From: Gemmatimonadota bacterium
GTDB taxonomy: Bacteria; GCA-2686955
DNA: 24,605 bases
Assembly (NCBI GenBank): GCA_002686955.1
Contig: NYZA01000029.1
Coordinates: 1 to 24,605 of the forward strand
Direction of reading: 5' to 3'
Shown here: positions 4,015 to 23,736 of the stretch, piece after piece
How the letters are laid out: each line of letters begins with the position of its first letter
How positions within the stretch are numbered: position 1 is the first letter of the stretch
Position numbers and translations under genes: made by a program
The notes under the pieces: generated by a model
Seen by the model: the letters and a program-made list of their open reading frames with translations, nothing else
The model's database searches: none
What the model was told of the DNA's origin: nothing

Positions 4015-5042
4015 GGCGGGCTCATCTGAAGAGAAGGCGTCGCCGACTCGACTGGGCCGACCGTCTTCGTGGCGCCGGCCGGAACGCGCCGCAGCGAATA
4101 GACCGCCCCCGCACGGCTCGAATGGTAGATTCGCACGACCATCTCTCCGAGCAGGCCGAGCGTCAAGAACTGTGTTCCGACAACCAGAAGCAAGACGCCC
4201 AGAAGAAAGAGCGGGGCACGATGCTCGAGAAGCCCCAATCCGGCTACATATTTCAGGCAGACCAGCCAGGTTTCGATCGCAATGCCGGCCCCGACGAGCG
4301 TGAATCCGAGCGTGCCGAAAAACTGTAGCGGCCTGCTCAGATAGCGCGTCAGGAAGAAGAGTCGAATCAGATCGAAGAAGACCGTGATAGTTCGCCCGAT
4401 TCCGTAGTTCGAGTTTCCGGCGACGCGAGGTCCGCAACGGATCGGGATCTCCGCTATGGCCGCCCCTTTTTCTCGCGCCAAAACTGGGATGAAGCGGTGG
4501 AACTCACCATAAAGATGTAGCTCTTTCAGAACATCTCGCCGGTACGCCTTGTAGGTCGTCCCGAAATCCCGCAGAGGCACGCCGGAGAGGTAGCGCATGG
4601 CCAGATTGGCGCATTTCGAGGGGAAACGCCGGCTGAACCAGGGTTCGGGGCGCCGTTCTCGCCACCCACTGACCACATCGAAACCCTCGTCGATCTTGGC
4701 CAAGAAGCGGGGGATGTCTTCGGGGGCATGCTGCAGATCCCCATCCATCGCGATCACGGTCTCGCCCTTGGCATGATCGAAGCCGGCCTGCAGCGCGGGC
4801 GTCTGGCCGAAATTGCCGCGCAAGGGGATCGGACGCACCCGCGGGTCGGACATTGCGATCTCGCGCATGCGTGAGTAGGAGCCGTCTTCGCTCCCGTCGT
4901 CGACGAGCACGATCTCCCAGGTGCGTTCGGTTCCATCGAGGGTGACCTGAAGCCGAACGTAGAGCGTGCGGAGGGTCTCGACCTCGTTGTAGCAGGGCAC
5001 CACGACCGAAACCTCCGGTCGCGCCGCGATCGCGTTGGGCAT
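4011..5042 (-). CDS. Family 2 glycosyltransferase, polyprenyl-phosphate sugar synthase type (DPM1/ArnC-like)
   Basis: A 343-residue protein. The GT2 GT-A fold is visible: VSVVVPCYNE (11-20), LVDDGS (46-51), the metal/nucleotide DGD at 100-102 followed by LQHAPEDIPRF, and a GTTYKAYRRDVL segment (161-172). Two C-terminal membrane helices (about 240-262 and 278-300) are typical of the family that transfers a sugar from NDP-sugar to undecaprenyl phosphate (ArnC, GtrB, DPM1 relatives). A good ribosome site (GAGGA) precedes ATG 5042. The gene overlaps the downstream GT-C fusion by four bases, suggesting a two-step pathway: this enzyme makes the lipid-linked sugar in the cytoplasm, the fusion translocates and/or uses it outside. 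The sugar cannot be told from sequence. Confidence 0.88.
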   Translation of the reverse strand: MPNAIAARPEVSVVVPCYNEVETLRTLYVRLQVTLDGTERTWEIVLVDDGSEDGSYSRMREIAMSDPRVRPIPLRGNFGQTPALQAGFDHAKGETVIAMDGDLQHAPEDIPRFLAKIDEGFDVVSGWRERRPEPWFSRRFPSKCANLAMRYLSGVPLRDFGTTYKAYRRDVLKELHLYGEFHRFIPVLAREKGAAIAEIPIRCGPRVAGNSNYGIGRTITVFFDLIRLFFLTRYLSRPLQFFGTLGFTLVGAGIAIETWLVCLKYVAGLGLLEHRAPLFLLGVLLLVVGTQFLTLGLLGEMVVRIYHSSRAGAVYSLRRVPAGATKTVGPVESATPSLQMSPP

Positions 5043-5125
5043 GGCTGTTCCTCACCGGTGTCGCGCCGGCCAACTGTTCGCCGACACATCGGGTAGATCG
5101 GCGAGTCGGTGGGGAACTGGAGCAG

Positions 5126-5482
5126 TCAGGTGCCCGCGTCAAGGGCTCCCGCGGCGGCTCTCAGCGCCTTGTCTTTTGTCCACAGAGGGCACTTCGTCAC
5201 GAGTGCCGACGCCAGCAGATGGACGTCGATCCATCCGAGCCCTTTCCCCGCGAGAACCCGATCATCCACCAACCGGAGCACCTCGGCGTGGCTCGCCGTC
5301 GATGCGGTCGGCAGAGCAGATAGCAGCCCGAGGATCTCAGCCCGATTCCGGAGATTCCCACAAGCGAGCTCCCCAATCACGAAGGGATGAGAGAGCACCC
5401 TTCCCTCGCCCAAGAGCCGCTCGAGCTCCTCCTCGCCCAGTCGTAGGTGATCGATCCAGACGGATGTGTCGACGAGGATCAC
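5126..5482 (-). CDS. vapC: VapC-type PIN-domain ribonuclease toxin
   Basis: A 118-residue PIN domain starting at GTG 5482, inside the stop of the antitoxin gene (GTGA overlap). It carries the four acidic positions expected of the nuclease: Asp5 in VDTSVWIDHL, Glu38 in FVIGELACG, Asp86 in GWIDVHLLASAL and Asp104 in LWTKDKAL. VapC toxins are Mg2+-dependent endoribonucleases that cut tRNA or rRNA and are held inactive by the cognate VapB. Length is normal for the family and nothing looks broken. The pair sits between GT9 and GT2 genes on the same strand as the glycan operon, so it is either a later insertion or travels with that operon. Confidence 0.93.
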   Translation of the reverse strand: MILVDTSVWIDHLRLGEEELERLLGEGRVLSHPFVIGELACGNLRNRAEILGLLSALPTASTASHAEVLRLVDDRVLAGKGLGWIDVHLLASALVTKCPLWTKDKALRAAAGALDAGT

Positions 5483-5676
5483 GCCGCATCCGTGCGGTGC
5501 CTGCGAATCGGCTCGAGCCCCTTCTCGCTCCCTCCGAGCGAGGCCAATCGACGAGCGCTTTCGAGGGCGATCAGCGCTTCGAGTCCGCGGCGGACGAGCG
5601 CGGTCTTCTCACTCACGCCGGTCAATCGCGCAGCCTCGCTGAGAAGCTGATCGTCGATGTTCAGAGTCGTTCTCAT
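5479..5676 (-). CDS. vapB: VapB-type ribbon-helix-helix antitoxin
   Basis: A 65-residue protein. The N-terminus (MRTTLNIDDQLLSEAARLTG) has the strand-helix pattern of ribbon-helix-helix antitoxins of the VapB/DUF2191 type, with a C-terminal tail (GLEPIRRHRTDAA) expected to wrap the toxin. It lies immediately before the PIN toxin with a four-base overlap, the standard antitoxin-first order. VapB, alone or with VapC, represses its own promoter by binding an inverted repeat. A suitable one lies 9-29 bases upstream of the ATG. Confidence 0.9.
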   Translation of the reverse strand: MRTTLNIDDQLLSEAARLTGVSEKTALVRRGLEALIALESARRLASLGGSEKGLEPIRRHRTDAA

Positions 5677-5684
5677 ATGTATGA

Positions 5685-5705
5685 ATATGCATCATTTGTG
5701 CATAT
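5685..5705. promoter_or_regulatory. Putative VapBC operator
   Basis: A perfect 7-bp inverted repeat (ATATGCA at 5685-5691, TGCATAT at 5699-5705) with a 7-bp spacer, in an AT-rich patch of otherwise GC-rich DNA. It occupies most of the 32 bases between the GT9 stop and the vapB start. Position and symmetry fit the autoregulatory site of a ribbon-helix-helix antitoxin, and its AT-richness suggests an overlapping promoter. Confidence 0.6.
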
Positions 5706-5708
5706 CAG

Positions 5709-6797
5709 TCAACTCCCACTCCCACACACAGCCACCACCGCGTCGGCCAACAGGTCGGGCGAGATCGCCATGCAGTCGACCGGAGCGCCTCGGCAGCGAT
5801 CGAACATGTCGTTGTGGCAGGGAGCCCGCTCGCAGAGATCTCGCCGAAACACGGCACGAACATCGGCTCGGCCGAGGTCGGTGATGCGCAGGGCCGGATC
5901 GGTGGGGCCGAAGATCGCGACCCGCGGTCGGGCGAATGCCCCGGCTGCGTGTAGGTAGAAGGTGTCGGTGGTGACGACGGCGGCCGCCGCGGCGAGGATC
6001 GAGCAGATTCGGCGAATGCCCAGCGCGCCGCTTTGCAGGCGCACGGCCGGCACCGCGGCGGCCACCCTTTCGGCTTCGTGTCGATCCTCGACGCCGTGGA
6101 CGATAACGATCTCGCGATTCGGCAGGCGCTCCCCCAGCTGCCGCACGAGGGCGATCCAGGAGGGAAAGCGCCGATTCCAGTCAGCGCCGCCGATAGCGAC
6201 GACGAGCGCACCCTCCCCTTCCCCGTCGGTCGCGTCGGGCGTGAGCTCGATGATCGGCCGCAGCGAATCAGCAGATCCCGGCGGCCGTCCGACCACTGCC
6301 TCGAAGAAGAGATGGGGGATGCTCTCCGCGGTCGTGAGCAGAGCTCTATCACCCCCATCCACCCGTCGCGCTCGTCCGAGCAGCGCAAGGCCGTGCTCCC
6401 GCGCCTCGGCACGCCCCAGATGGACCACGCGATCCCAGCCGGAGCCGATCGCCGCCCTCCAGGGAGCGCTCCCCTCCGCCAGCACCCTTCGAATCGGATC
6501 GAATCCTCGAGCGAGCTCGCGAATCGACTCCGCCACCCCGGGATCGACCAGAAGATCGACCTGAAGCCCGGATTCGTCTCGAGCGAGCGCGCCGATCGCC
6601 GGCGTGAGCATCAGGTAGTCGCCCAAACGATAGGGAAAGGTGATCAAAACGCTTCGCGCACAAGCGTTTTCCGGCTTGGTGGTACGCAGCCGCACGAGCC
6701 TCCGGAGTGCAATTCGCGGCCCCTCTCTCAGCGGTGCCGAGAAAAAAAGGAGCGCCAACGTCGGATTATTGCCCAGGCCGCTCATGCCATGCGCCAC
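5709..6797 (-). CDS. Family 9 glycosyltransferase (heptosyltransferase-like)
   Basis: A 362-residue GT9/GT-B protein. The N-terminal Rossmann half begins at SVLITFPYRLGDYLMLTPAI (49-68), equivalent to the start of ADP-heptose:LPS heptosyltransferases. The C-terminal half has the nucleotide-binding signature TTDTFYLHAAGA (276-287) followed by VAIFGPTDP (293-301), and a late Cys-containing segment common in the family. GT9 enzymes add heptose or related sugars to lipid A-core or similar acceptors in the cytoplasm. The first 48 residues are an unusual extension; GTG 6695 (residue 35) is an alternative start closer to the family norm. It ends just before vapB and probably belongs to the same transcript as the other glycan genes. 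Confidence 0.88.
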   Translation of the reverse strand: MAHGMSGLGNNPTLALLFFSAPLREGPRIALRRLVRLRTTKPENACARSVLITFPYRLGDYLMLTPAIGALARDESGLQVDLLVDPGVAESIRELARGFDPIRRVLAEGSAPWRAAIGSGWDRVVHLGRAEAREHGLALLGRARRVDGGDRALLTTAESIPHLFFEAVVGRPPGSADSLRPIIELTPDATDGEGEGALVVAIGGADWNRRFPSWIALVRQLGERLPNREIVIVHGVEDRHEAERVAAAVPAVRLQSGALGIRRICSILAAAAAVVTTDTFYLHAAGAFARPRVAIFGPTDPALRITDLGRADVRAVFRRDLCERAPCHNDMFDRCRGAPVDCMAISPDLLADAVVAVCGSGS

Positions 6798-7261: not shown

Positions 7262-8200
7262 CTACCCGCGATCTCGGTACCAGCTCACGAAACGCTTGAG
7301 CCCCTCATCGATACCGATCTTCGGGCTGTACCCGAGGACGGCGGCGCTACGGCCGAGATCAGCGCAGGTTCGATCGACGTCGCCCGGCTGGGCATCGGCC
7401 CTCTTGATCCGCGCCTTCTTGCCGAGAGCCCTTTCGATCCTCGATATCAGCTCATCCAGCTCCACCATCGCGGAGTTGCCGAGGTTCAGGATCTCGTACC
7501 CCTCCGGGCGCTCCATCGCCGCCTCGACGCCGTCCACGATGTCTTCGACGTAGGTGTAGTCCCGCCGAGAGCCATGGCCGAAGAGAACGATCTCGCTGCC
7601 AGCTTCGATGGCGCGAACAAACTTATGGATCGCCATCTCGGGCCGCTGGCGCGGGCCGTAGGCCGTGAAGAATCGCAGGTTGACGATCTCCATCCCGTAG
7701 AGATGGTGATAGGTGTAGGCCAACTGCTCACAAGCCAGCTTGGACGCCGCATAGGGAGAGATCGGATGTTGGAGGTGAAGATCCTCGCGGAATGGGATCT
7801 CCGGGTAGTTGCCATAAACCGATGAGGAGCTGGCGACCACGACACGCCGCACACCTTCCGCCTTCGCGGTCTCGAAGAGCCCCAACGAGCCGCGGACGTT
7901 GACGTCGAAGTAGAGGGCCGGATTTTCGATTGAGGGGCGCACACCCGCCCGCGCGGCCAAGTGCACGATCAGATCGATTCCGCGGCAGAGGCGGCGCAAC
8001 AGCGGCTCGTCGCGAATGTCGCCCTCGATCAGCTCGAATCCAGAATGGCGCGACGCGTCGACCAAGTTCGACCGCTTGACCGCGGTGGGGTAGAAACCAT
8101 CGAAATTGTCGACGGCGGTTACCCGCTCCCCCCTCGCCAGGAGTCGATCCACGACGTGCGAGCCGATGAATCCCGCGCCGCCCGTGACCAGAACGTGCAT
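7262..8200 (-). CDS. NAD-dependent epimerase, UDP-glucuronate 4-epimerase-like
   Basis: A 312-residue extended short-chain dehydrogenase/reductase. It has the Rossmann motif TGGAGFIGSH (6-15), the catalytic Ser region SSSSVYG (124-130) and YAASK (Tyr150, Lys154). The segment ARAGVRPSIENPALYFDVNV (83-102) resembles UDP-glucuronate/galacturonate 4-epimerases, where an Arg near this position contacts the uronate carboxyl. The reaction would be UDP-glucuronate to UDP-galacturonate or a related C4 inversion, but SDR substrate calls from sequence are soft. Start ATG 8200 overlaps the upstream stop (ATGA). The open frame continues to 9274 but covers the neighbouring gene in a different frame. Confidence 0.85.
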   Translation of the reverse strand: MHVLVTGGAGFIGSHVVDRLLARGERVTAVDNFDGFYPTAVKRSNLVDASRHSGFELIEGDIRDEPLLRRLCRGIDLIVHLAARAGVRPSIENPALYFDVNVRGSLGLFETAKAEGVRRVVVASSSSVYGNYPEIPFREDLHLQHPISPYAASKLACEQLAYTYHHLYGMEIVNLRFFTAYGPRQRPEMAIHKFVRAIEAGSEIVLFGHGSRRDYTYVEDIVDGVEAAMERPEGYEILNLGNSAMVELDELISRIERALGKKARIKRADAQPGDVDRTCADLGRSAAVLGYSPKIGIDEGLKRFVSWYRDRG

Positions 8201-9153
8201 CAGGCTCCGGCCCCGCCTTCGACGCTCCGCCAGAACTCGAGAAGATCTCTGAGCGTGTCGTCGAAGGGGATCTCCGGCTGCCAGCCGGTGGCTCTTCGTA
8301 ACGCGGAGGCGTCCCCGGCCATGACCGGCATGTCGATCGGGCGCATGCGATCGGGATCGGTTTCTACGCGGATCTCTGCGCTCGAGAGCGCGAGCAAGGA
8401 GTCCAGAACCGACTGGATCGAGATCGGGCGCTCCGAGGCGACGTTGTAGATCGATCCGGCGGATCCGTGCTTGGCGACCATTCGGTACGCCCGAACGACG
8501 TCGCGCACATCGGTGAAATCGCGCTCCGCGCTCAGATTGCCGACCCGGATCACGGGCTCTTGTCGCTCCGCCTCGATGGCCGCCACCTGAGACGCGAAAT
8601 CGGAGCAGACGAACGAGGGGCCCTGCCCGGGCCCGGTGTGGTTGAACGAGCGGAGCACGATCCACTCGGGCGCGCCGGGCACCCCGGCGCAACCCCGCAG
8701 TGCGAGCTCGGTGGCCACCTTCGATGCGGCGTAGGGAGTGCGCGGGTCGACCGGTTGCTCCTCGGAAACCGGCACCTCGTGTGGGCGGACCAATCCGTAG
8801 ACCTCGCCGGTCGATACGAAGACCATCCGGCTCGGTCGCCGAAGGCGGGTGAGCGCCTCGAAGACGTGAACGGTTCCGAGAGTGTTCACCGCGAAGGCCG
8901 CCGAGGGATCCTTCATCGTTTCCGGAACGAAAGAGATAGCGGCCAGGTGATAGACGACATCGGGCGCGACGTCGTGCACCAGCTCTCGCACGGCGTCGCG
9001 GTCCTTGACGTCTAGAGGGAGCAGAGGGTCGCCCTCGCCCGAGCTGATCAGGCAGGTTCCCACGATATCGTCGCCGCACTCGCTCAGATGCCGGCGAAGA
9101 TGCCCCCCGACGAACCCTTCCGCCCCGATGACCAGCGCACGCATGGCGCTCAT
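8200..9153 (-). CDS. GDP-4-keto-6-deoxymannose reductase-like SDR (Rmd/Gmd family)
   Basis: A 317-residue extended SDR from ATG 9153, which overlaps the upstream stop (ATGA). It has the Rossmann motif VIGAEGFVGGHL, the active-site segment STGEVYGLV and YAASK. The C-terminal half carries RSFNHTGPGQGPSFVCSDF and the DPDRMRPIDMPVMAGD block found in GDP-6-deoxy-D-lyxo-4-hexulose reductases (Rmd). Rmd converts GDP-4-keto-6-deoxymannose to GDP-D-rhamnose. It is clearly paralogous to the upstream, stop-containing gene over its whole length, pointing to tandem duplication. If the upstream gene was the dehydratase partner, the substrate may now come from elsewhere. Confidence 0.83.
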   Translation of the reverse strand: MSAMRALVIGAEGFVGGHLRRHLSECGDDIVGTCLISSGEGDPLLPLDVKDRDAVRELVHDVAPDVVYHLAAISFVPETMKDPSAAFAVNTLGTVHVFEALTRLRRPSRMVFVSTGEVYGLVRPHEVPVSEEQPVDPRTPYAASKVATELALRGCAGVPGAPEWIVLRSFNHTGPGQGPSFVCSDFASQVAAIEAERQEPVIRVGNLSAERDFTDVRDVVRAYRMVAKHGSAGSIYNVASERPISIQSVLDSLLALSSAEIRVETDPDRMRPIDMPVMAGDASALRRATGWQPEIPFDDTLRDLLEFWRSVEGGAGA

Positions 9154-10118
9154 GGAATGCCCGCCGCTCGCCAGTACTCGAGAATGTCGTGAAGTGTGGT
9201 GTCGAAATCGATTTGGTGACGCCAACCCGTGCGCTCCTGGAAGGGGGTGGGGTCGCCGAGCAGGAGCGGCACATCGGACGGCCGCAAACGCCGCGGGTCG
9301 GTCCTCACCTCGATCTCGACCGTGCTCATGGCTCTGAGCTTGTCGAGAACCTCACGAATCGAATAGCCCTTGCCGGAGCAAAGGTTGTAGACCGAACCGG
9401 GCGCGCAGTGTTCGAGGGCGCACCAGTAGGCCCGAACCATGTCTCGCACGTCGGTGAAGTCGCGGACGGCGTCGAGATTGCCGACGTTCATCACCGGTTC
9501 GCGTTTCCCCTTTTCGATCTCGGCGACCTGCCTCGCGAAGTCGGAGCATACGAACACCGGCCCCCGCCGGGGCCCGGTGTGGTTGAAGCCGCGCGTGCGC
9601 ACGACATCGAGGCCGTAACTCTGATAGTATTGGAAGCCCAGTAGATCCTGGCCGACCTTGCTGACGGCGTAGGGCGAAAGTGGGCGAAGCGGGTTCGACT
9701 CCTTGATCGGAGTCTCGTCGGGATGGACGAGGCCGTATTCCTCGGACGAACAGGCGATCTAGATCCTCGGCTCGATGCCGACACGTCGCACCGCTTCGAA
9801 AAGGTTGAGCTGCCCGGTCAGATTGGTTTCTATCGATTCGGTCGGCGCGGTGAAGCTGGTGGGCACGAAGCTCTGCGCGGCCAAATGGAAGATCCAGTCG
9901 GGTCGAGCCGCGTCGATCAGATCGCGTGTGCTCGATGCATCGCGCAGGTCGCATTCGACCAGATCGATCCGATCGGCGAAGTGGCCGATGTTCTCGGTGC
10001 GGGAACGCCAGCGCTGGATCCCCGTGATCTCGACACCGGGGTGCTCGGCGAGGATGTAGTCCACCAGATGGCTGCCGGCGAAGCCGGTCACGCCCGTGAT
10101 CAATACGCTCTTGCTCAT
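9150..10118 (-). pseudogene. GDP-mannose 4,6-dehydratase/reductase-like SDR interrupted by an in-frame TAG
   Basis: The reading frame is continuous from ATG 10118 to TGA at 9150 except for one TAG at 9759-9761 (codon 120 of 323). Before it: GVTGFAGSHLVDYILAEHPG, FHLAAQSFVP and GIEPRI. After it, with no shift: IACSSEEYGLVHPDE, SPYAVSKVGQD (the catalytic Tyr and Lys) and GFNHTGPRRGPVFVCSDF. The missing residue lies in the strand before the catalytic Ser and is commonly Gln in relatives, so one CAG to TAG change explains it. The first half lacks Tyr/Lys and no ATG, GTG or TTG restarts translation before them, so without read-through it should be dead. The rest looks well conserved, implying a recent lesion, a sequencing error or suppression. 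It overlaps the next gene by four bases. Confidence 0.83.
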
Positions 10119-10167
10119 TTCAACCGTTCGAATGGCGCCGCCGCTGGGTGGGCGGACGCCAGCTGTT

Positions 10168-11106
10168 TTAGGGAGTCAGCGCGCCGAAGAACTCGGCCGT
10201 GAGCTCCAGGCCTTCGCGAAGGGACACTTTCGGCTCGTAGCCCAAAACCTCACGGGCGCGGGTGATGTCGGCGAGTGAAAAGCGAACATCTCCCTTTCGC
10301 GGGGCGGAATGAACAGGCTCGCCCTTGGCCCCGATAATCTCCTTGATCGTGCGTGCGAGATCGACCAGCGAGATCATCTCGCCGCAAGCGATGTTGAAGG
10401 CGTGTCCTGATGCATCCTCGGCGGTGCTGGCCAGTAGATTCGCGTCCACGACATTGTCGATGTAAGTGAAATCCCTCGCCTGGAGTCCGTCACCGTAGAT
10501 GGTCGGCACGCGCCCCTGGAGGTAGGCGGTCACGAAGAGCGGGATCACCGCGGAGTACTCCGATGTCGGATCTTGATAGGGCCCGAAGACATTGAAATAG
10601 CGGAGCGTGACCGCTTCGAGCCCGTACAGGGCGGGGAATATGCGGCAGTAGTATTCGGAGCTGATCTTGTTGATGGCGTATCCCGAGATCGGATTCGGGA
10701 CCATCGTTTCGACCTTCGGCAAGGTCTCGCTGTCGCCGTATACCGAGGACGAGCCGGCATAGACCACTCTTCGCACGCCGGCGTCACGAGCGGCGATGAG
10801 CAGATCGAGCGTGCCGGTGGAGTTGACGAGATGCGAGCCCATGGGATTTTCGACCGAGCGTTGAACCGAAGGGACGGCGGCCTGATGGAAAACGTAGTCG
10901 ATCCCCTCGACCGCTCGACGGAGTGCATCGGAATCGCGTAGATCTCCCTGGGCGAAATCGAGGTCATTGCGGATGTCGTCGAGGTTCGACAGGCGCCCCG
11001 TCGACAGGTTATCGAAGACACGAACCTCTTGCTGATCGGCAAGCAGCCGGCGGGCGATGTTAGATCCGATGAAACCGGCCCCACCGGTGATCAGATAGCG
11101 TGACAT
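10168..11106 (-). CDS. NAD-dependent sugar-nucleotide epimerase (UDP-GlcNAc/UDP-glucose 4-epimerase type)
   Basis: A 312-residue extended SDR: Rossmann motif TGGAGFIGSN (7-16), acidic strand 2 end FDNLSTG (31-37), catalytic SSSVYGD (119-125) and YAINK (Tyr143, Lys147). The pattern AAVPSVQRSVENPMGSH (76-92) and YFNVFGPYQDP resemble the WbpP/GalE-like branch that interconverts UDP-GlcNAc and UDP-GalNAc, or their uronic acids. It probably supplies a hexosamine precursor for the polysaccharide. It lies between the Wzc-type kinase (66-base gap) and the interrupted SDR (49-base gap). Confidence 0.86.
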   Translation of the reverse strand: MSRYLITGGAGFIGSNIARRLLADQQEVRVFDNLSTGRLSNLDDIRNDLDFAQGDLRDSDALRRAVEGIDYVFHQAAVPSVQRSVENPMGSHLVNSTGTLDLLIAARDAGVRRVVYAGSSSVYGDSETLPKVETMVPNPISGYAINKISSEYYCRIFPALYGLEAVTLRYFNVFGPYQDPTSEYSAVIPLFVTAYLQGRVPTIYGDGLQARDFTYIDNVVDANLLASTAEDASGHAFNIACGEMISLVDLARTIKEIIGAKGEPVHSAPRKGDVRFSLADITRAREVLGYEPKVSLREGLELTAEFFGALTP

Positions 11107-11172: not shown

Positions 11173-13518
11173 CTAGCGACCGACCACGCCTTCCTCAAGT
11201 CCAGCGATCCGCCCGTCCTCCGTGTTCGGCACCATGCGGCTTTCCACAGTGTCCGCTTCGGCCAGGGTCGGTCTGCGTTGATGCCACATCGCCGCGGCGA
11301 TCGCGAAGAAGGTGGCGACGATCGCCACGCCCCGCGCGGCCCTCCAGATAGAGGTGGCGCGGGAGTTGGTCTTATTGTCCGCGTCTTCGTGGTAGTGATA
11401 GTGGTAGTGGTAGCCGCCGTATCGGCCGTAGCCGCCACCGACGTCGACGTTGTTGAGGACGACGCCCAGGCATCTGCGTGCCGCCGTTTCGACCAGGGTC
11501 TTGGTCCGTTTGGCCACTTGCTCCAGGGTCTCTCCTGCCTCGACGATGATGATGACGCCGTCGAGAAGGGCGGAGAGCAACAGCGCGTCGGTCACCGCCA
11601 TGACAGGAGGTGTGTCGACGATGATCTGATCGAATTCGCGGCCCACCTCTTCGATGAAGCGGGCCATGGCGTCCGATCCCAGCAGCTCCGAAGGGTTCGG
11701 TGGAAGCGACCCGCTGGTGATGACGTGGAGGCCTTCGATCTCGGTCTTCTGTATCACTTCTTCCAGCGTCGCATTGCCGGCGAGGTGGTCGGTCACGCCT
11801 TTCTGGCGCTTGAGAGAGAAGAGCTTGTGGAGCACCGGCCGGCGCAGGTCGGCGTCGAGCAGCAAGGTGCGCTTGCCGCTCTGGGCGATCGTGATGGCCA
11901 GATTCGAGGCGGTGGTCGATTTGCCTTCTTGCGGCCCCGATGAGGTGATCGCGATGGAGCGCAATGGTGCACCGACCGCGGCGAATCCGACGTTGGTGCG
12001 AATCGTCCGATACGCCTCCGCCATCGGTGATTGGGGCTCGTGGAGGGTGACCAGGCGTGCGCTCTCATCCTCCGCCTCCGCCGCCTCCTCGAGCGCGGCC
12101 ACCGCCCCGAGGACCACCGTATCGAGCTTCTGCTCGACCTCATCGATCGTGCGCAAAGAGGTGTCCAAGTACTCGAAAAAGAAGGCCAGCGACAGGGCCA
12201 GGCCGAGCCCGACGACCAAACCGAGCAGGGCGTTCATCCGGCGATTCGGTCGCACCGGGTCCAGGAAGGGGAGGGCGGCATCGATGATCCGCACGTTCCC
12301 GATCTCTCCCGCCTCGGAGATCCGCACCTCTTCGTACTTCTCCTTCATCATCAGGTAGGTGTTTTCGTTGACGGTGTATTCGCGAGTCTTGCGGGCGAGT
12401 GCGAGCTCCTTGTCGGGGAGGGAGTGGAGTTTCGTCGCGTAGTCGGCCACGAATCGGTTGAGCTCCGCGGCGCGGGAACGGGCGGTTTCGAGCTCGGTGC
12501 GTAGTTCGAGCACCTTTTCCACCAAGCCTTGGCTGTAGAGAAGGGGGTCTCCGGGCAGCAGATCGCGATCGACTATCTTCTGGGTTTCAGCCGCCAGTCT
12601 CGTCTTGGCCTGCTTCACCTTCGATTCCAGATCGATGATCTGGGGGGAATCTTCCGATGCGCCCCGCACCAGGAGAGAGGTGTGCTCGATCTGCAGGGCG
12701 ACGAGCTGCTCGCGCAACTGAATGACGAGAGGACTCGCGGCGGCGTCATCCAGATCCTCGACCAGGCCGGCGCGCGCTCTCTCTAGCTCACCTTCGAGGT
12801 GCTCCAGACGTCGTTCCAGCGATTTCTGATCGGTGATCGCCGCGTTCTCCGCACTCTCGAACTCCGCGAGCTGCCGAACCAGCCATTCCACCTCGTCGGA
12901 GAGCGATACCAGCCCCGATTTGGTCTTGAAGCTGCGCAGCTCCTCCTCCGAGATGGCAAGCCGTGTCTCTACCTGATGCAGCTGTTCCTCCAGGAATTGC
13001 CGCACACCGGAGAGCTCTCCGCGATTCTGACTGATATTTTGGTTTCGGTACTCCTCGGCGAAGAGGTTCGCGAAATATGCTGCTTCGTCGGGATCCCCGG
13101 CGGTCATCTTAATCGTGATGACATCGGCGTCTTTGAGGGGACTGACCGAAAGCCTGCTTCGCAATGCCTCGACCCAATCGGCCATCGGATCGGATTCCGG
13201 CGGTGGCGTCCAACCCTCCCGCATTGCCCGATCGAGCACCTGTTGAGCCAGAGAGCGGCTGCGCAAGAGCTCGCATTCGTTGTTGATGAGGATCTTCTGC
13301 TTCATGAACCCGGTCGGATCGAAGATCGACAGGGCCCCGGCATCTTGCGGTTCGATCAGAAGCGTGGTCTGTGACTCGTAGACCGGCTGCATCCGCAAGG
13401 TGAAGAAGATGGTGAACGCCAGCACGGCGGTCGCAACGAGGCCGACCATCCATTTGCGGGACCAAATGATGCGAACATAGTCCGCCAGAGTGACGCCATG
13501 AGCTTGGTGTTCGTCCAT
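11173..13518 (-). CDS. Wzc-like polysaccharide co-polymerase and bacterial tyrosine kinase
   Basis: A 781-residue inner-membrane protein. It has an N-terminal Wzz domain with a first helix (about 25-41), a long periplasmic coiled coil (about 170-380), a PxxP-type segment and second helix (about 420-450), then a cytoplasmic BY-kinase: Walker A SSGPQEGKST (526-535), Walker A' LLLDADLRRP (552-561) and Walker B IIVDTPPV (632-639). Such proteins set chain length and drive export of capsule or exopolysaccharide through cycles of tyrosine autophosphorylation. The Tyr cluster is unusual: Tyr697, 700, 703, 705, 707 and 709, the last four alternating with His. It is also not terminal: a third hydrophobic helix (about 728-746) and a 35-residue tail follow. 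Its gene follows the SLBB export gene by nine bases, the usual Wza-Wzc order. Confidence 0.92.
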   Translation of the reverse strand: MDEHQAHGVTLADYVRIIWSRKWMVGLVATAVLAFTIFFTLRMQPVYESQTTLLIEPQDAGALSIFDPTGFMKQKILINNECELLRSRSLAQQVLDRAMREGWTPPPESDPMADWVEALRSRLSVSPLKDADVITIKMTAGDPDEAAYFANLFAEEYRNQNISQNRGELSGVRQFLEEQLHQVETRLAISEEELRSFKTKSGLVSLSDEVEWLVRQLAEFESAENAAITDQKSLERRLEHLEGELERARAGLVEDLDDAAASPLVIQLREQLVALQIEHTSLLVRGASEDSPQIIDLESKVKQAKTRLAAETQKIVDRDLLPGDPLLYSQGLVEKVLELRTELETARSRAAELNRFVADYATKLHSLPDKELALARKTREYTVNENTYLMMKEKYEEVRISEAGEIGNVRIIDAALPFLDPVRPNRRMNALLGLVVGLGLALSLAFFFEYLDTSLRTIDEVEQKLDTVVLGAVAALEEAAEAEDESARLVTLHEPQSPMAEAYRTIRTNVGFAAVGAPLRSIAITSSGPQEGKSTTASNLAITIAQSGKRTLLLDADLRRPVLHKLFSLKRQKGVTDHLAGNATLEEVIQKTEIEGLHVITSGSLPPNPSELLGSDAMARFIEEVGREFDQIIVDTPPVMAVTDALLLSALLDGVIIIVEAGETLEQVAKRTKTLVETAARRCLGVVLNNVDVGGGYGRYGGYHYHYHYHEDADNKTNSRATSIWRAARGVAIVATFFAIAAAMWHQRRPTLAEADTVESRMVPNTEDGRIAGLEEGVVGR

Positions 13519-13527
13519 CGGGCGGTC

Positions 13528-14019
13528 CTACTCGGAGAAGAAGATGAGGTTGGCCGTGGAAGCAACGATTGCTACCTGGGTCATGAAACCGAAGAAGCGT
13601 CCGACGGCGTACCAGACACTTCCTGGGACGACGACCGTGTCGCCGGGTCTCAGCATGAGGGTCGCATTCGGATTGCCGTGGGCGATGTAATCCTTCACAT
13701 CGATCTCGTCCACCTGATCCGCATGATCAGCCGTGCGGACCAGCTTCACGGACGACACTCGGGCGTTTTTTGTAGGGCCGCCGGCGTACGACAAGAGGGT
13801 GACGAGATCGGTATTGTCGGGCACGACATAGAGCCCTGGCTTGTGCACCTCTCCCCAGACATGAACGGTGATTTGCAGTCGCGACTCGTGCCCAGGGCTG
13901 ATGTAGTAGGCGGGGCTTGCGCCCTGTATCGCGGAGGCTCCCTCCGCGGCGGCGATCGGCGCCACGAGCCAGATCAGCAGAAGGGCCAAGAGATCGAGTT
14001 TGTGCGTTCGGCTCTTCAT
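13528..14019 (-). CDS. Short SLBB-domain polysaccharide export-like protein
   Basis: A 163-residue exported protein. The signal peptide is residues about 1-25 (LLALLLIWLVAPIAAAEG). One SLBB-like beta-grasp unit follows (VHVWGEVHKPGLYVVPDN, then LVTLLSYAGGPTKNA), ending in LRPGDTVVVPGS (122-133), a standard SLBB closing motif. Residues about 138-160 are hydrophobic and may form a membrane helix. Wza/OtnA-type outer-membrane exporters are usually 350 residues or more, with a Poly_export domain before SLBB; that domain is absent, so this is either a minimal periplasmic connector for the kinase next door or a partner of an exporter elsewhere. A GGAG ribosome site lies five bases before ATG 14019. 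Confidence 0.82.
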   Translation of the reverse strand: MKSRTHKLDLLALLLIWLVAPIAAAEGASAIQGASPAYYISPGHESRLQITVHVWGEVHKPGLYVVPDNTDLVTLLSYAGGPTKNARVSSVKLVRTADHADQVDEIDVKDYIAHGNPNATLMLRPGDTVVVPGSVWYAVGRFFGFMTQVAIVASTANLIFFSE

Positions 14020-14134: not shown

Positions 14135-14854
14135 TCACGAGGAAACCTCGAAGGCGATCCACAGCGATTCCGAGCCCCGATAGGGATCCGAGGGGTCGAC
14201 CGCATCGACCCTCCATCGGTAGCTCCCTGGCAGGAGATCCGGGGGCTCGAGCTCAGGGCCGTACTCGGTCTCGATCGTTTCGGCACCCTCGAAGAACTCC
14301 ATCAGCGGCGAGATCCAGTTCGAGCCGTTGTCGAGCGCTTCTACCCTGACGACGAAGCGAGGCAGTGTTCCCGCCTCCGGCCAGCTCCATTGAAAGACCG
14401 GGGACGGGCCCGAGGAGGATTGGGGCGCGGGTGAGATCGGATCGGCCTTGCGGATCAGCGTGACCGCCACGGTGTCGGTCGATGCACTCACGCGGTTCTC
14501 GGAATCATGTACTTCGAGTGCGTAGCTCCACGTTCCGAGATTGGGGACGAAGTCGATCATCGCCGTGTCGCTCGGTGCGAGGCCGGCGAGCAAGGCGAAT
14601 GCACTCCCGCCCTCCGCCCGATAAAGCGACACATCGGTGACCGCTTCCGAGGGTCGATGCCACTCGACGTGGATTCCGAGCTCGGCGCTGGCTTCGGCGT
14701 CTACTCCGCGCTCCTCGGATGCAGTGGGCGTAGATGGAGAAACGAAACTCGGAGCGACCAGAGGCGCGAGCGCGGGGCCGTTGGGTGGCTCAACGCAGCT
14801 CGAGAGCGCAAGCATGCACAAGAACACTGATATTGATCTTGCTTGACGATCCAT
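14135..14854 (-). CDS. Lipoprotein with beta-sandwich (fibronectin III-like) repeats
   Basis: A 239-residue protein with a lipoprotein signal: MDRQARSISVFLCMLALSSC, where LSSC is the lipobox and Cys20 the lipidated residue. The mature part suggests two beta-sandwich modules of fibronectin-III type: about 55-135 (IHVEWHRPSEAVTDVSLYRA, then WSYALEVHDSENRVSAS) and about 145-239 (VFQWSWPEAG, then GSYRWRVDAVDPSDPYRGSE). No enzyme motif is seen. ATG 14854 lies two bases after the upstream stop; ATG 14866 would overlap that gene and add four residues. As third gene of the PorU/PorV-like operon it could be an accessory subunit of the outer-membrane attachment complex, by inference. Confidence 0.8.
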   Translation of the reverse strand: MDRQARSISVFLCMLALSSCVEPPNGPALAPLVAPSFVSPSTPTASEERGVDAEASAELGIHVEWHRPSEAVTDVSLYRAEGGSAFALLAGLAPSDTAMIDFVPNLGTWSYALEVHDSENRVSASTDTVAVTLIRKADPISPAPQSSSGPSPVFQWSWPEAGTLPRFVVRVEALDNGSNWISPLMEFFEGAETIETEYGPELEPPDLLPGSYRWRVDAVDPSDPYRGSESLWIAFEVSS

Positions 14855-14856
14855 GA

Positions 14857-15891
14857 TCAATCCCATGGGTAGAAGGTGAGGTCGATTCGGTGGTTCTCGA
14901 GGGCCTCCGCGGAAAGAAATGCGTAGTCTACTTCGACCTTCCACGCGCGGAATCCGGCGCCGGCGGTGAGATCGCCCCGGTGCTCTCCCACTCTGAGTGC
15001 CACCATGTTCTTGAAGCTCCACTCAGCACCCATTCCCTTGTCGTTTCTTCCCCCATCTTGCAGATCCCACACCTCTCCCCAGGTGAGATTCAGTTCGCTC
15101 GAGAAGGCCGGAAAGGGCTGCGAATAACCTAGATCGAGCCGCACCCGCATCGGCAACGACGCTTTGCTTCGACTCGCCGTGTCCCAGGTGATCTGGGTGC
15201 CGGCGATGTCGATCAACGCTACGCCGAGGGCGGCATCGCCGAGTGCATCGAATCCGATCATCTCGGCCGCCCCGATACGCACATGCGCCCCCAGATCACC
15301 GCCGAGTCCGACGGCGATGTTGTCGTCCAGGGATTGGCTGATGTACTTGATCGACCCTCCGAATCCCGTGGCGAGGGGGAAGGGACTGTACAGCCAGCCG
15401 AAATCGACGATCCGCTCGCTCCTGCGCGCAAGAGAGAGGCGGAACCCGAGGTCTTGGGCGTCGAAGTAGCCGGAGGGATCCCCGGAGGGACGTGCGGATA
15501 CGTTGCTTTCTCGTTCGGCGCGACCCTTCGGATCGAGCGACTGATCGTAACGAGGGATTGCATCGACCGCGAAGCGCAGCACCGAGACCGACACGATCAT
15601 CGCTCCACCGAGCGGACGTGCGTAGCCAGCGTAGTCCAGGCTGGCGAGTCCCCCGCCGTAGAAGGTGTGATGCAGTCCGATCTCGTCGCCTCGCACCGAC
15701 GAGAGCCGCGAGGCGTTCCACCAGTCGGCGCTTCCTCCCCTCGCCAGGGCCGCGGTGCTGCCCATCGCGAGCTCTCGAACTCCTACACCGAGATCCATAA
15801 AGTCGGCGGCGTAGCGCAACTCCCGAGCAGTCGCTGTGGCCTGTCCCAACACTCCGCAGATTCCGGCCAAATACAAGCAACGATGTTTCAT
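14857..15891 (-). CDS. porV: PorV/UPF0164-like outer-membrane beta-barrel protein
   Basis: A 344-residue exported protein with a signal peptide (about 1-23) and then the N-terminal pattern of PorV/PorQ/UPF0164 proteins: LGVGVRELAMGSTAALARGG (34-53), DWWNASRL (56-63; WNP-type motif) and an alternating pattern of beta strands with Gly and aromatic residues to the end. In Bacteroidota PorV (LptO) is a FadL-like barrel that shuttles T9SS cargo from the translocon to the PorU sortase. ATG 15891 overlaps the stop of the PorU-like gene (ATGA), so the two are translationally coupled, which strengthens the family call. Without the partner the call would only be a FadL-like barrel; a direct PorV role is inference. 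Confidence 0.78.
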   Translation of the reverse strand: MKHRCLYLAGICGVLGQATATARELRYAADFMDLGVGVRELAMGSTAALARGGSADWWNASRLSSVRGDEIGLHHTFYGGGLASLDYAGYARPLGGAMIVSVSVLRFAVDAIPRYDQSLDPKGRAERESNVSARPSGDPSGYFDAQDLGFRLSLARRSERIVDFGWLYSPFPLATGFGGSIKYISQSLDDNIAVGLGGDLGAHVRIGAAEMIGFDALGDAALGVALIDIAGTQITWDTASRSKASLPMRVRLDLGYSQPFPAFSSELNLTWGEVWDLQDGGRNDKGMGAEWSFKNMVALRVGEHRGDLTAGAGFRAWKVEVDYAFLSAEALENHRIDLTFYPWD

Positions 15892-18800
15892 CGCAGAACC
15901 GCCAACTTCTTGGTAGACGAGATCTTCTGACCCTTCTTCGAGCCGATCGCTTGAACGCGATAGAAGTAGACGCCATTCGCGACGGGGTATCCCCAGGCGT
16001 CGCGCAAGTCCCAGGGCACTTCGGAGTAGTCGACCGTGCGGATTAGATCTCGTTTGGAGCTGAAGGAGCGGATCATGCGCCCCGAGGGCGTGTAGATACG
16101 AATGGTGACCTCTTTGACCGAGTCCCAATCGGTTTCGAGCGTGAAAGCGATGGTTGTTCCCGCGGCGGACGCCGGATTCGGATAGTTGGCGAGATCCCTG
16201 ATCCGTGTCGACTCCCCGATCAGGAACGATGTCGAGCTACCGCGGAGGTTCCCGTTGACGTCTTGAACCTGGAGCTCGGCCTCGTGACCACCGCGCCCCA
16301 TCTCGGTGGGCACACTGATCGAAACGAGGTTCGGGTGCTGCGGATTCGGCGAAACGGAGTAGCTCGAAGCATCGAGCGTCTCGCCGTCGAGCATGACGAT
16401 GATCCGTTCCGGCTCGACATCGACACCGTTGGCATCTTGGACCAAGAAGTCGAGAACCGGGCGAGGAGCGACGAATCCTCCTTCGGCAATGACACGCCCT
16501 TGGCTCTGAAGCTCGATCTCCGGAGGGGTTTGGTCCCGGTTGTCGAGTACCGTATAGGTGCCGGGCGGGAGATCTTCACTCCTCACATCTCCACCCGATT
16601 CGCTCGACCTGGGATCGCGAACCCACTTGCCTCGGTCCGGATCCCAACGATAGAGGGCGGGATCGACGAGGGTGCCGCCGCCCAGATGGAAGGTGGCTTC
16701 GATGCCGCTGACTTCGATCGTCGAATCGGCGAATCCGAAGCGATAGGCAACCCCGGCACTTCCATCGAGGAAGATCGGAGCTTCGTAGTCGGGCTGCGCC
16801 GTGGGCTCCATCATCGACACACGCTCCACGATTAACACCGCGGGTGTCGGGACGGCTCCCGGCTGCACTTCAATGTGCAGATTCCCGTCTACAGACGGTC
16901 TCGACCCCTCCGAGCCCTCGCTGGGAGTAACGGCATATCGATCGGCCGAAACCTTGAGCACTCGCAGGTTGTTCACCTCGGAGCTTTCTTCGAACTCCGC
17001 ATCGGAGTCGATCTCGACTCGAACCAAGTACGATCCTGAAGGCAGATCCCATGGGATTTCGGTACGAGCGGGAGCTTTTCCCGCAACATCGATCTCGGTG
17101 CGAGTGACACTATCGAAATCGTTCCATTCCTCTTCCCGCGGAGTGTAGATCGTGTCATCCTGTACGACTACGGGATGCCATGCGAACGTGACACTCACAT
17201 CTTGAGCGTCGACCTGGCCCGCGTTGAAGATGTCTACTCCGAAAGTGACGCTGCTTGTTCCGCCGAAAACTCCTTGGCGGCCGTTGGCGAAGGTTAGATC
17301 TTCGCGCCGGAGCACCTTGTAGCTCTCGGGGGCGCCGACCCAGCGATCGACGGTCTCTCCTTCAGCCACCACTTTCATGAAGATCTCTCGACCGCCGGGT
17401 TGAGATGGAATCGTGTCTTCGGTAACGTACTCGTCGCCGGGGCCATCAGGAGTCAGCTCGAGTGTATCGGCGGGACCGAAAGAGGAGTTGGTAGCCCAGA
17501 CCAGTCGGAACCGGTCGTGTCCACCACCAGAGGCCATTGTGGTTCGAACAAGGGCCGGAACTCCGTCTCGCACCGGGTCAGGGCTTGTGGTCAGCGGTGC
17601 TACCACCGGTACACTTACGCCGATCGGCGCACCGCCGAAACGCTCACCGGATCGCGCCCTCAGAGTCCACGCGCCTTGCGGTGCATCGACCGGAATGTCG
17701 ACGCTCGTCTCGAAGGAACCAGATGCATTGGCGGTCACGGTGGTCTCGACGTGGACCACTTCATCGGCATCACTGAGCGCGATCGTAACGGCGCCGCCAG
17801 CAGGTGCTCCACTTCCACTGAGAGCGACCGAGCCGCCCAAGGCGGTGGCCGCGGGCTCCGCGTTCAGCTTGATATCCGCCCGCGGAAGCCCGGGCACCAG
17901 CGAGGGGTCTCCGAGCAGGTTGTATGCCCGTACGATATCCCGCGGAATCAAGCCGTCGTTCGTCAGATAGAAGGTCCCTTTCGCCAGCAAGATCGATTCG
18001 CCTAATGAGCGATCGCCGCGGGAAGGATCGAATACCGCATCGATAAGATGTCGATTGAGCCCATGTCCCTGGAGCGAATAGGAGAAACCGGAAGAGCCGA
18101 GAAAGCCGACCGCGCCTTTATCGGCCTCGGTCAAGAACACCTCACCGATCGCCGCGGGTCCCGGATCGGCGAACGAGCCCGTATAGCAGGTCATGGAGAA
18201 GACGATCGGAAGTTTGTCTCCGTTGCGCAGGAGCGGAACATCTTCAATGTCGAGCAGATCGGCATCGGACCAGATCCCCCCGCCTCCATGCCCCTGGAAG
18301 TTGGCTAGAGCCACACCTGCGTCGAGATCTCTGGTCAACTCGGGCCCTCCGCGAAAATGTGGATCGTCTTCGCGGGTCTCGTCTTCGGTGGTGAACACCC
18401 GTTGCGGCTTGATATGCGGCGGAACGCCTTCGCGAATCAGCTGCTCCGAGCGATCACGGAATTCCAGTCCATTCCCGCCGATCATTTCAACGATTCCTCG
18501 CCACTCTCCCGTGGCCGGATAGGCCATCGTCTTGTCGATCACAACTTGGAGCTCCTCCACGTTGTGTACGGTCCAGCGCCCGATAGAGAGCGCAGGCAGA
18601 ATCGAATCGTCGCTTGGCAGTCCGTACCAGCCGTCCGACGAGGTTTGGCCCCAGTTGACGTTGTAGTCCAGACCGGCGGGCACGCGGTTCTCCAGAGCGT
18701 CGCCGCCCTGGATATTCCGAAAATCCCAGGTGCCGTCGCCAGCTAAGAGCAGGTTTTCCAGCGCGGGAGAAGCCCATCCGCCCATGGCCAGACGGATGAA

Positions 18801-20780
18801 GGCCCGTATCGCCTCAGGGCTGGGACGCCCCCCACCGAATTGATGCACGATGTCTTCGAGTACGACGAGCGTCGTAGCGACACCTTGGGTCTCTTTCCAA
18901 TCCACGAAAGGAAGCAGAGTACCTTCGAACTCCCTGGGAGCGATGATGAGTAGCTCAGCGGCCAGGGAGAGATCACGAAGATCAGGACCGTCGGGAACTA
19001 CTTCCACCGCTGTAGGATGCTCGAAACGCCCTTCTTCCAAGGCGACATAGCGAACGTCGGACGTGACGAGATGGTCTTGGATCTTAATCTCGTATTTTCC
19101 GTTTCCGCGGCCCGGCCGGATCGTGCCGTTGACCATCTCACCCACACCGAGCTTGAATACTCGAATCGCCTCGGACCTGAAGCCGGAAAGTCGAAACTGG
19201 TACAGACCCGAGCCGCCATCGACCGGTGATGCGAAATCCAGAACCCCATTTTCGGCTTCGTACAGTCGGTCGTACGAGACCTCGACCCAGTCCAGATATA
19301 CCTCGTCGAGGTTTTCGGCGGGAGTGTCACCCGGCGCAACCAAGCTGATTTCGTTTTCAGAGTCGCGAAGTCTCGCCATCGGAACATTGTCGGCATTGTG
19401 GACAATGGCGGTCTGTCCATCGAATGTGACGTCGTCCAGCGATTGGCTGTTGATATAGATTTCGAGATGATGATCCGGGTACTGGGGTGGATATGTCGCT
19501 CCCTGGAGCCGAAGTTCGACACTTGCGGCGCTACCTAGGAGATCGGGTGAAGGAAGGTGGATCGGTACGACGCAGAGCGTTGGTGCACGGATCGATCGCC
19601 AGAACCAGTGATCGAGACCGGGGGTGCCGTCTTGTCCGAGGCGGGAGAAGATCGAGTCGCGTTCGACGTGAACGGTCCACCGGAAGGCTCCCGGTTCGAC
19701 ATAGCGACTGGGGTTCCCCTCCGCGGGAGCGGCATCTTCTCGAATCAGGCGCGCGCCTGGAGTGTCGCCCCAGGTGAGGAAGTACGCGTTTTCGATGGTA
19801 TAGGGATCGAAGTATTGGCTCTCACCGCGTGGCGCACGTCCATAGAAGAGAATACGGTCCCCACGATCGAGCTCGCCGTCGCCGCCATCTTCAACCAGAA
19901 TCGGCTCGGGCGCCTCGCCCTCGGTCAAGGCAAGTGTCGCCACGTCGATCTGCGAGAGACGAACCCCCGCGGCGGCGATTTGGGCGCCCGTAATGGCCAT
20001 CATGCCGTCACGGTCAACGGCGATTCGAAGCACCGGCGCGCCCGAGCCGCTCATCGGTGCTCGGGGAGCGGAGAGGGATGTTTCGGTGGTTTTGGACCCG
20101 AATCGGGTGGGTTTTCGGCGCCATCGGCGGGCGGTGCGTGGATTCAGCAGGATCGACTCCAATGCGGAATCGAGTGGGCCGGAGGCGATCGATCGCGGAT
20201 CGGGATGGGCATCGCCGGGCGCGATCTCGATGCGAAGATCGACCAAGCGCCTGAGCACACCTTCTCCGGTGGCGGGGCGCACCGAGACCGGATAGAAGGA
20301 GATTCGGGCCAGGTGAAGGCCGCGAAAACCGATCCTCTCGATGTTGAAAGGGCTTGCGGGCAGCAGACGGGTGTCGGAGGAGGGGAGGAGAGCGCTGTCG
20401 CCGCCGGGAGCACCCAGAGCGGGGTCGGCGCCCGCGTCCGCGCGCAACACCGGCAGGGGCCCGAAATCGATCGCCTCCCGCTCGACCGAGGCCAGGCGCA
20501 CCCGGACGGGAGTATCGGGGAAGGGGAGGGCAACGACCCTCGATACCACCGGGAGCACGACTTCACCGGGCTCTGTTCGCAATCCCGCACCCGCCAGATA
20601 CAGATTCGATATCTCCCCGGTCCGCGATCTTTGGAGCTCGGGCTCATCGCATGTGATACGCAGCCCGATCTCGGTATCGGAGAATCGAGTGACGTGGAGG
20701 TCGACGGCGGCCGGCCATGCCTCTGAAACGCCTACCCCGCACAGGCAAAGAGCGAGCAATGTGCTTTTGGATATACTCAT
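15888..20780 (-). CDS. porU: Giant C25-family cysteine peptidase, PorU-like T9SS sortase
   Basis: A 1630-residue exported protein; ATG 20780 starts a good signal peptide (SKSTLLALCLCGVGVSEAWP), while ATG 20810 adds ten residues. Residues about 25-600 are beta-rich pro-region and linker modules. The C25 (gingipain-type) peptidase spans about 610-960: GDGTWDFRN, then the catalytic His831 in NFQGHGGGGIW and Cys865 in SMTCYTGSF, followed by AIGEVFL and LNLLGDPS-like segments. Residues about 970-1520 hold Ig/CARDB-like units (FEESSEVNNLRVLKV is typical CARDB). The last 98 residues from YPNPAS to KKLAVLR are a FlgD-like type-A sorting domain. PorU removes C-terminal sorting domains and links cargo to surface glycolipid. 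Bacteroidota PorU is nearer 1100-1200 residues, so this is long; a secreted gingipain-like protease is the alternative, but coupling to a PorV gene favours PorU. Confidence 0.85.
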   Translation of the reverse strand: MSISKSTLLALCLCGVGVSEAWPAAVDLHVTRFSDTEIGLRITCDEPELQRSRTGEISNLYLAGAGLRTEPGEVVLPVVSRVVALPFPDTPVRVRLASVEREAIDFGPLPVLRADAGADPALGAPGGDSALLPSSDTRLLPASPFNIERIGFRGLHLARISFYPVSVRPATGEGVLRRLVDLRIEIAPGDAHPDPRSIASGPLDSALESILLNPRTARRWRRKPTRFGSKTTETSLSAPRAPMSGSGAPVLRIAVDRDGMMAITGAQIAAAGVRLSQIDVATLALTEGEAPEPILVEDGGDGELDRGDRILFYGRAPRGESQYFDPYTIENAYFLTWGDTPGARLIREDAAPAEGNPSRYVEPGAFRWTVHVERDSIFSRLGQDGTPGLDHWFWRSIRAPTLCVVPIHLPSPDLLGSAASVELRLQGATYPPQYPDHHLEIYINSQSLDDVTFDGQTAIVHNADNVPMARLRDSENEISLVAPGDTPAENLDEVYLDWVEVSYDRLYEAENGVLDFASPVDGGSGLYQFRLSGFRSEAIRVFKLGVGEMVNGTIRPGRGNGKYEIKIQDHLVTSDVRYVALEEGRFEHPTAVEVVPDGPDLRDLSLAAELLIIAPREFEGTLLPFVDWKETQGVATTLVVLEDIVHQFGGGRPSPEAIRAFIRLAMGGWASPALENLLLAGDGTWDFRNIQGGDALENRVPAGLDYNVNWGQTSSDGWYGLPSDDSILPALSIGRWTVHNVEELQVVIDKTMAYPATGEWRGIVEMIGGNGLEFRDRSEQLIREGVPPHIKPQRVFTTEDETREDDPHFRGGPELTRDLDAGVALANFQGHGGGGIWSDADLLDIEDVPLLRNGDKLPIVFSMTCYTGSFADPGPAAIGEVFLTEADKGAVGFLGSSGFSYSLQGHGLNRHLIDAVFDPSRGDRSLGESILLAKGTFYLTNDGLIPRDIVRAYNLLGDPSLVPGLPRADIKLNAEPAATALGGSVALSGSGAPAGGAVTIALSDADEVVHVETTVTANASGSFETSVDIPVDAPQGAWTLRARSGERFGGAPIGVSVPVVAPLTTSPDPVRDGVPALVRTTMASGGGHDRFRLVWATNSSFGPADTLELTPDGPGDEYVTEDTIPSQPGGREIFMKVVAEGETVDRWVGAPESYKVLRREDLTFANGRQGVFGGTSSVTFGVDIFNAGQVDAQDVSVTFAWHPVVVQDDTIYTPREEEWNDFDSVTRTEIDVAGKAPARTEIPWDLPSGSYLVRVEIDSDAEFEESSEVNNLRVLKVSADRYAVTPSEGSEGSRPSVDGNLHIEVQPGAVPTPAVLIVERVSMMEPTAQPDYEAPIFLDGSAGVAYRFGFADSTIEVSGIEATFHLGGGTLVDPALYRWDPDRGKWVRDPRSSESGGDVRSEDLPPGTYTVLDNRDQTPPEIELQSQGRVIAEGGFVAPRPVLDFLVQDANGVDVEPERIIVMLDGETLDASSYSVSPNPQHPNLVSISVPTEMGRGGHEAELQVQDVNGNLRGSSTSFLIGESTRIRDLANYPNPASAAGTTIAFTLETDWDSVKEVTIRIYTPSGRMIRSFSSKRDLIRTVDYSEVPWDLRDAWGYPVANGVYFYRVQAIGSKKGQKISSTKKLAVLR

Positions 20781-22573: not shown

Positions 22574-22688
22574 GATCGGTGCCAAACGGGGCTATGGTCG
22601 AGATGCGGTAGTTCTTACTCGGGGGCACGGGCCTCGCGCATGCGGCCAATCTGAGATGACAGCAAATACTGCATTTGGAGAAAAAACG

Positions 22689-23657: not shown

Positions 23658-23679
23658 GAACGCAGCACTCGGGGAATCG

Positions 23680-23719
23680 GCGGCCGCCACTCGTGCGCGA
23701 TGCGACGAGCGGCGGCCGC
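23680..23719 (+). terminator. Strong hairpin terminator between convergent genes
   Basis: A 15-bp stem (23680-23694 with 23705-23719, one mismatch) around a 10-nt loop, very GC-rich and followed on the plus strand by the pyrimidine tract TTCTCTCTTCTC. It begins 22 bases after the stop of the lamin-tail gene and ends 17 bases before the stop of the convergent OmpA gene, so it may serve both transcripts. Confidence 0.75.
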
Positions 23720-23736
23720 TTCTCTCTTCTCGTGAG

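Follow-up and report, generated by a model that had tools for sequence, protein, structure and literature searches.

In Porphyromonas gingivalis, PorZ delivers the anionic lipopolysaccharide (A-LPS) to which PorU joins cargo proteins (PMC8545088), and this joining proceeds through a Wbp/Vim linking sugar (PMC7468200). A review has already suggested that the type IX secretion system (T9SS) occurs in further phyla of the Fibrobacteres-Chlorobi-Bacteroidetes (FCB) group (PMC11285876), so its presence outside Bacteroidota is not in itself new; Poribacteria have been reported to encode proteins with C-terminal sorting domains (CTDs) for which no secretion pathway was known (PMC3909097), and C25 enzymes of Latescibacteria have been counted as nutritional proteases (PMC4454575). 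Here, we describe an operon in a contig of 24,605 nucleotides from a Gemmatimonadota bacterium (NYZA01000029.1, assembly GCA_002686955.1; this whole stretch is hereafter the window), in which genes for a C25 peptidase, a PorV-like barrel and a lipoprotein (LP) follow one another on the minus strand. We give about an even chance to the reading that this operon is a T9SS surface-sorting module outside Bacteroidota, a paralogue-level variant of PorU-PorV distinct from canonical PorU, in which LP and a single-SLBB-domain protein encoded next would be undescribed conserved partners and cargo would probably be joined to a glycan.

The closest described system is the PorU-PorV attachment complex of Bacteroidota, which also contains PorQ and PorZ. 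Like that complex, the operon and its relatives elsewhere (the cassette) set a CTD-bearing C25 peptidase beside a PorV-family barrel in genomes that encode SprA and CTD proteins. Unlike it, the cassette has a separate C25 clade, scores below the family cut-offs, and LP and SLBB genes next in line.

Species genomes were scanned with a C25 alignment profile, which was needed because a single-sequence C25 query gave no matches. Among the best 80 loci, on which the counts rest, a PorV-type gene lies behind C25 in 51, and 49 of these have enough contig to be judged; LP comes directly after C25-PorV in 31 of the 49 evaluable loci, with SLBB next in 21 of the 31. The cassette phyla, labelled as recorded although a few look mis-binned, comprise Calditrichota, KSB1, Latescibacterota, Neomarinimicrobiota/Fidelibacterota, WOR-3, Kryptonia, LCP-89 and others; one cassette locus, L141, lies in a metagenome-assembled genome that bears the name of the cultured Calditrichota species Caldithrix abyssi. 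As a second test, an LP profile, with seed sequences taken from C25 neighbours, was run on 145 genomes and found full-length genes in 10 (open frames of 244-300 aa); all 10 are the third gene, directly behind C25-PorV, and none lies elsewhere in this sample. Profile matches of 80-100 residues within large proteins are generic fibronectin type III (FnIII) domains and were excluded from the counts. The C25-PorV-LP order is far beyond chance. An earlier note on this DNA had suggested looking for the three-gene order in relatives and had taken the lipoprotein for a lineage-specific subunit that may act in place of PorZ/PorQ: the order is present far outside the lineage, and the notion of lineage specificity falls, given that LP recurs behind C25-PorV across many phyla; a substitution of LP for PorZ/PorQ is conjectural. 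Poribacterial C25 enzymes were considered as members of the cassette and rejected because no PorV or LP gene adjoins them and they form a clade of their own. Separately, a conserved gene order upstream of C25, with a CdaA-like (diadenylate-cyclase-like) gene and folate and FtsH genes, is shared by four loci from distant phyla (L036, L039, L065 and L094).

The peptidase itself is readily placed in its family (Pfam PF01364, E=4.8e-71). Against the NCBIfam models, the window C25 scores 283 bits with PorU (NF033707; curated cut-off 420) and 136 bits with PorU2 (NF052324; cut-off 450), and the other cassette C25s behave alike, reaching 264-375 bits with PorU, preferring it over PorU2 and falling short of both thresholds. 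When the C25 profile was compared with solved structures, it gave 247 bits with PorU (6za2), 108 with RgpB and 75 with Kgp, so that by sequence comparison the window C25 is much nearer to PorU than to the gingipains. The catalytic His and Cys are retained in all 109 aligned C25 domains, including all 40 of the LP-type enzymes; in the window protein they are His831 (GHGGGG) and Cys865 (SMTCYTG), at the residue numbers given in the earlier note, which had also correctly recognized the type-A CTD (TIGR04183, which scores 27.4 bits where 23 is the cut-off).

In a tree of the 109 catalytic domains, all 40 LP-type enzymes fall within one 54-row clade (SH-aLRT 95), apart from the NCBIfam-canonical PorU group, the tree being unrooted with several long rows. 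Canonical-type PorU occurs alongside the cassette in genomes G008, G055 and G052, as judged by profile score, and in G046, as judged by the tree place of its locus L059. Given the separate clade and this coexistence, the window C25 may be a second sortase, or even a cargo protease, and not the PorU of its genome. It is the only C25 detected in the genome to which the window belongs (the window genome), but this assembly is 84.5% complete. In its relative G001, an additional C25-like fragment lies at the edge of a contig, and the window assembly may thus lack a canonical PorU. A second type of C25-PorV pair, with neither LP nor SLBB and in a clade of its own, was seen in KSB1-type loci such as L038, L075, L083, L093 and L102; G046 carries canonical PorU, the LP-type and the LP-less type together.

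The barrel encoded next matches best, among NCBIfam models, PorV2 (NF052325; 80.6 bits, E=1e-22, cut-off 325), followed by the PorV/PorQ family (NF033709; 57.9 bits, E=1e-15, cut-off 90) and PorV (NF033710; 18.7 bits, cut-off 250), in each case short of the cut-off; some of its orthologues in other cassettes exceed the 90-bit threshold of the PorV/PorQ family. The cassette thus resembles PorU2/PorV2 in the best match of its barrel, but differs in that its proteins lie far below both of those cut-offs and its C25 scores higher with PorU than with PorU2. The window genome holds about ten PorV/PorQ family members. Four further paralogues (contigs C82, C159, C257 and C91; loci L175-L178) adjoin genes that encode CTD proteins, and two of these paralogues are flanked by such genes on both sides, as if type-A-like cargo of this genome had dedicated PorV shuttles.

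LP carries the lipobox LSSC with its Cys at position 20, and an AlphaFold2 model built from 32 orthologues (mean pLDDT 88.5) bears out the two beta-sandwich modules predicted in the earlier note. Both domains structurally match tandem FnIII pairs, and for the first the likeness is also evident from a sequence profile. The window LP matches no named family in Pfam or NCBIfam, and a minority of its relatives weakly match fn3-type models. What sets LP apart from FnIII pairs in general, as a family of its own, is the lipobox, the motifs E-x-G-I-D-A and GSES-x-W, and its fixed place behind PorV; the 32-member alignment shows conservation of the lipobox Cys, of E-x-G-I-D-A and of a C-terminal YRWRVD...GSES-x-W. 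The second domain superposes on the C-terminal domain of PorU 6za2 (VIA-align, Z 10.3, rmsd 2.4 over 96 residues). Its identification as a CTD was nevertheless rejected and left as a structural lead, because profile comparison with 86 CTDs gives a probability of 0.5% and tandem FnIII pairs match equally well.

The fourth gene product contains one SLBB domain (E=4e-10) and belongs to a family for which a 21-member alignment spans phyla. Among solved structures, its matches include Wza and other polysaccharide export proteins. Like outer-membrane polysaccharide export (OPX/Wza) SLBB proteins, it is secreted, has one SLBB domain and has Wzc encoded next in three genomes (the window genome, its relative G001 and the distant genome G154). 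Unlike them, it has a C-terminal hydrophobic helix, lacks the polysaccharide-export domain (only SLBB models match in Pfam), and is linked to C25-PorV-LP, not to a Wza locus. In the Latescibacterota locus L065, SLBB is followed by Wzi and then by an RmlA-like nucleotidyltransferase, and in five related KSB1-type loci RmlA comes immediately behind SLBB. The linkage to polysaccharide genes that the earlier note had proposed to look for thus recurs in several lineages, although this association was noticed post hoc and is only suggestive.

In Calditrichota, the gene behind SLBB encodes a protein of about 390 aa, for which the model shows an outer-membrane barrel of 12 strands that ends in a long C-terminal helix. 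One or two such barrels stand behind SLBB in many phyla (L098, L106, L109, L124, L132, L135, L141, L172 and others); the family is unnamed in Pfam and NCBIfam, its C-terminal helix has about 55 residues, and its nearest solved folds are FapF and a COG4313 channel. We exclude it from the window module because it has no match in the window genome.

The window genome encodes SprA/Sov, which scores 522.7 bits across its frame (cut-off 200), and 28 TIGR04183 matches, 26 of them above the cut-off. In the 145-genome sample, SprA exceeds its cut-off in 35 genomes, among them all 10 with LP (hypergeometric P=2e-7), even though SprA had no role in selecting the seed of the LP profile; this P value is only a guide because genomes share ancestry, nearly all being from different families, though. 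SprA was likewise present in all 20 chosen cassette genomes, and in G046 its gene lies just upstream of the cassette. The PorL/GldL model had no match in 29 genomes, with the controls equally silent. SprA, CTD cargo and conserved linkage, the absence of which the earlier note had regarded as fatal to its proposal, are accordingly all present.

In the mechanism that we propose, CTD cargo would exit through SprA, and the PorV-like barrel would retain it at the cell surface. The C25 peptidase, itself carrying a CTD, would cut off the cargo CTD via a thioester at Cys865 and pass the new cargo C terminus to an amine of a surface glycan, in the way that PorU uses A-LPS. LP, lipid-tethered to the outer membrane, would keep the peptidase in place or orient it, while the products of the neighbouring genes would make or present the glycan, to which the SLBB protein would link this site. 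CTD cleavage and A-LPS-type ligation are putative activities of the window C25, and we infer its action on other CTD proteins, the glycan-amine acceptor, the standing of LP as a subunit and the SLBB bridge to the glycan. A more far-reaching version, which we hold only tentatively, is that the cassette represents a second, PorU-paralogous sortase system, widespread in phyla other than Bacteroidota and equipped with a PorV-type shuttle, a two-domain lipoprotein and an SLBB partner of its own. The acceptor of T9SS cargo in this system would be a glycan of the exopolysaccharide or capsule type, linked to Wzc, Wzi or RmlA, and not A-LPS.

Several observations weigh against the surface-sorting module. 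LP is missing from 18 of the 49 evaluable C25-PorV loci, no sugar gene lies behind the cassette in Calditrichota and others, and the window proteins reach none of the curated cut-offs for PorU, PorU2, PorV and PorV2. Several genomes have a canonical PorU in addition to the cassette, which therefore need not encode the general sortase. Finally, the PorV-CTD gene pairs elsewhere in the window genome would be expected equally if the operon encoded a protease together with its shuttle. This is the main alternative, somewhat unlikely in our estimation: the C25 would be a secreted, gingipain-like surface protease and the PorV-like barrel its dedicated shuttle, with LP and SLBB serving for display or anchoring and without processing of other proteins. 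It accommodates the CTD on the C25 itself and the canonical PorU found beside the cassette in other genomes; the four other PorV paralogues beside CTD genes make such pairing a habit of the window genome, and type B cargo in Flavobacterium has cognate shuttles, which belong to a different family (PMC12618676). However, the likeness of the C25 to PorU extends over a long stretch and is well above that to gingipains, PorU also bears a CTD, no other C25 was detected that could serve the CTD proteins of the window genome (in an assembly 84.5% complete), and the conserved SLBB gene and recurring Wzc, Wzi and RmlA neighbours would be left unexplained. The SLBB and sugar genes, together with the PorU likeness, tilt the balance towards a sorting module, but not decisively. 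It is improbable that we are dealing with a divergent PorU-PorV pair that removes CTDs without glycan transfer, releasing the cargo or leaving it held by PorV, with LP and SLBB engaged in envelope assembly unrelated to sorting: this would suit a PorU-PorV-like pair accompanied by SprA and CTD cargo, the many loci with no sugar gene behind the cassette, and the fact that no Wbp/Vim-type linking-sugar pathway turned up, no search having been aimed at one, but fits poorly with full-length LP occurring only behind PorV in this operon across the 145 genomes, with SLBB, Wzc, Wzi and RmlA recurring beside the cassette in separate lineages, and with a C25 clade separate from a canonical PorU that coexists with it.

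The layout of the locus is given in Table 1. On re-reading, the coordinates of the trio in the earlier note proved exact, as did the four-base ATGA overlap that places the PorV-like start inside the C25 stop codon and the two bases (tc) between the PorV-like TGA and the LP ATG; the trio was correct as a gene set, too, but the SLBB gene, part of the conserved set, lay outside the interval chosen. Wzc begins 9 bp behind SLBB on the same strand, and Pfam and NCBIfam models confirm the co-directional sugar genes reported there. The epimerase/dehydratase, GT9 and GT2 genes are best regarded as associated context, their membership in the module being only putative.

Table 1. Genes of the C25-PorV-LP operon and the co-directional genes behind it (positions in the window)
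Feature	Position	Strand	Details
PorU-like C25 peptidase	15888..20780	-	1630 aa; signal peptide; His831/Cys865; C-terminal type-A sorting domain
PorV-family outer-membrane barrel	14857..15891	-	344 aa; PorV2 and PorV/PorQ family models
LP lipoprotein, third cassette gene	14135..14854	-	239 aa; lipobox Cys20; two fibronectin-III-like domains
Secreted single-SLBB-domain protein, conserved fourth gene	13528..14019	-	163 aa; PF10531; C-terminal hydrophobic helix
Wzc, polysaccharide copolymerase / tyrosine autokinase	11173..13518	-	TIGR01007, 209 bits, above cut-off
Four NAD-dependent sugar epimerase/dehydratase genes (7262-8260, 8200-9225, 9150-10118, 10168-11106)	7262..11106	-	Pfam Epimerase / GDP_Man_Dehyd
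Glycosyltransferases GT9 (5709-6797) and GT2 (4011-5042)	4011..6797	-	Pfam

The GDP-mannose-dehydratase-like gene at 9150-10118 on the minus strand contains one in-frame stop near 9759, either a sequencing error or a sign of a decaying copy. Divergent from the operon, a glycoside hydrolase family 31 (GH31) gene of the alpha-glucosidase/xylosidase type starts at 20897, and the region 20897-24600 also encodes a secreted protein with a lamin-tail domain, as well as an OmpA protein that contains thrombospondin type-3 repeats.

The open-licence literature searched contained no description of a C25-PorV-LP operon, nothing linking SLBB with T9SS, and no naming of PorU2/PorV2 in the NCBIfam sense; the cassette with its LP and SLBB partner appears to be new. 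T9SS biology rests on Bacteroidota, and the cassette is a compact, conserved PorU/PorV-like unit in many other phyla, with LP and SLBB as core proteins for which we found no secretion role described in that literature. If the cassette ligates proteins to glycans, T9SS protein-glycan attachment would predate A-LPS ligation and extend more widely, which would make LP and the SLBB protein concrete candidates for assay.

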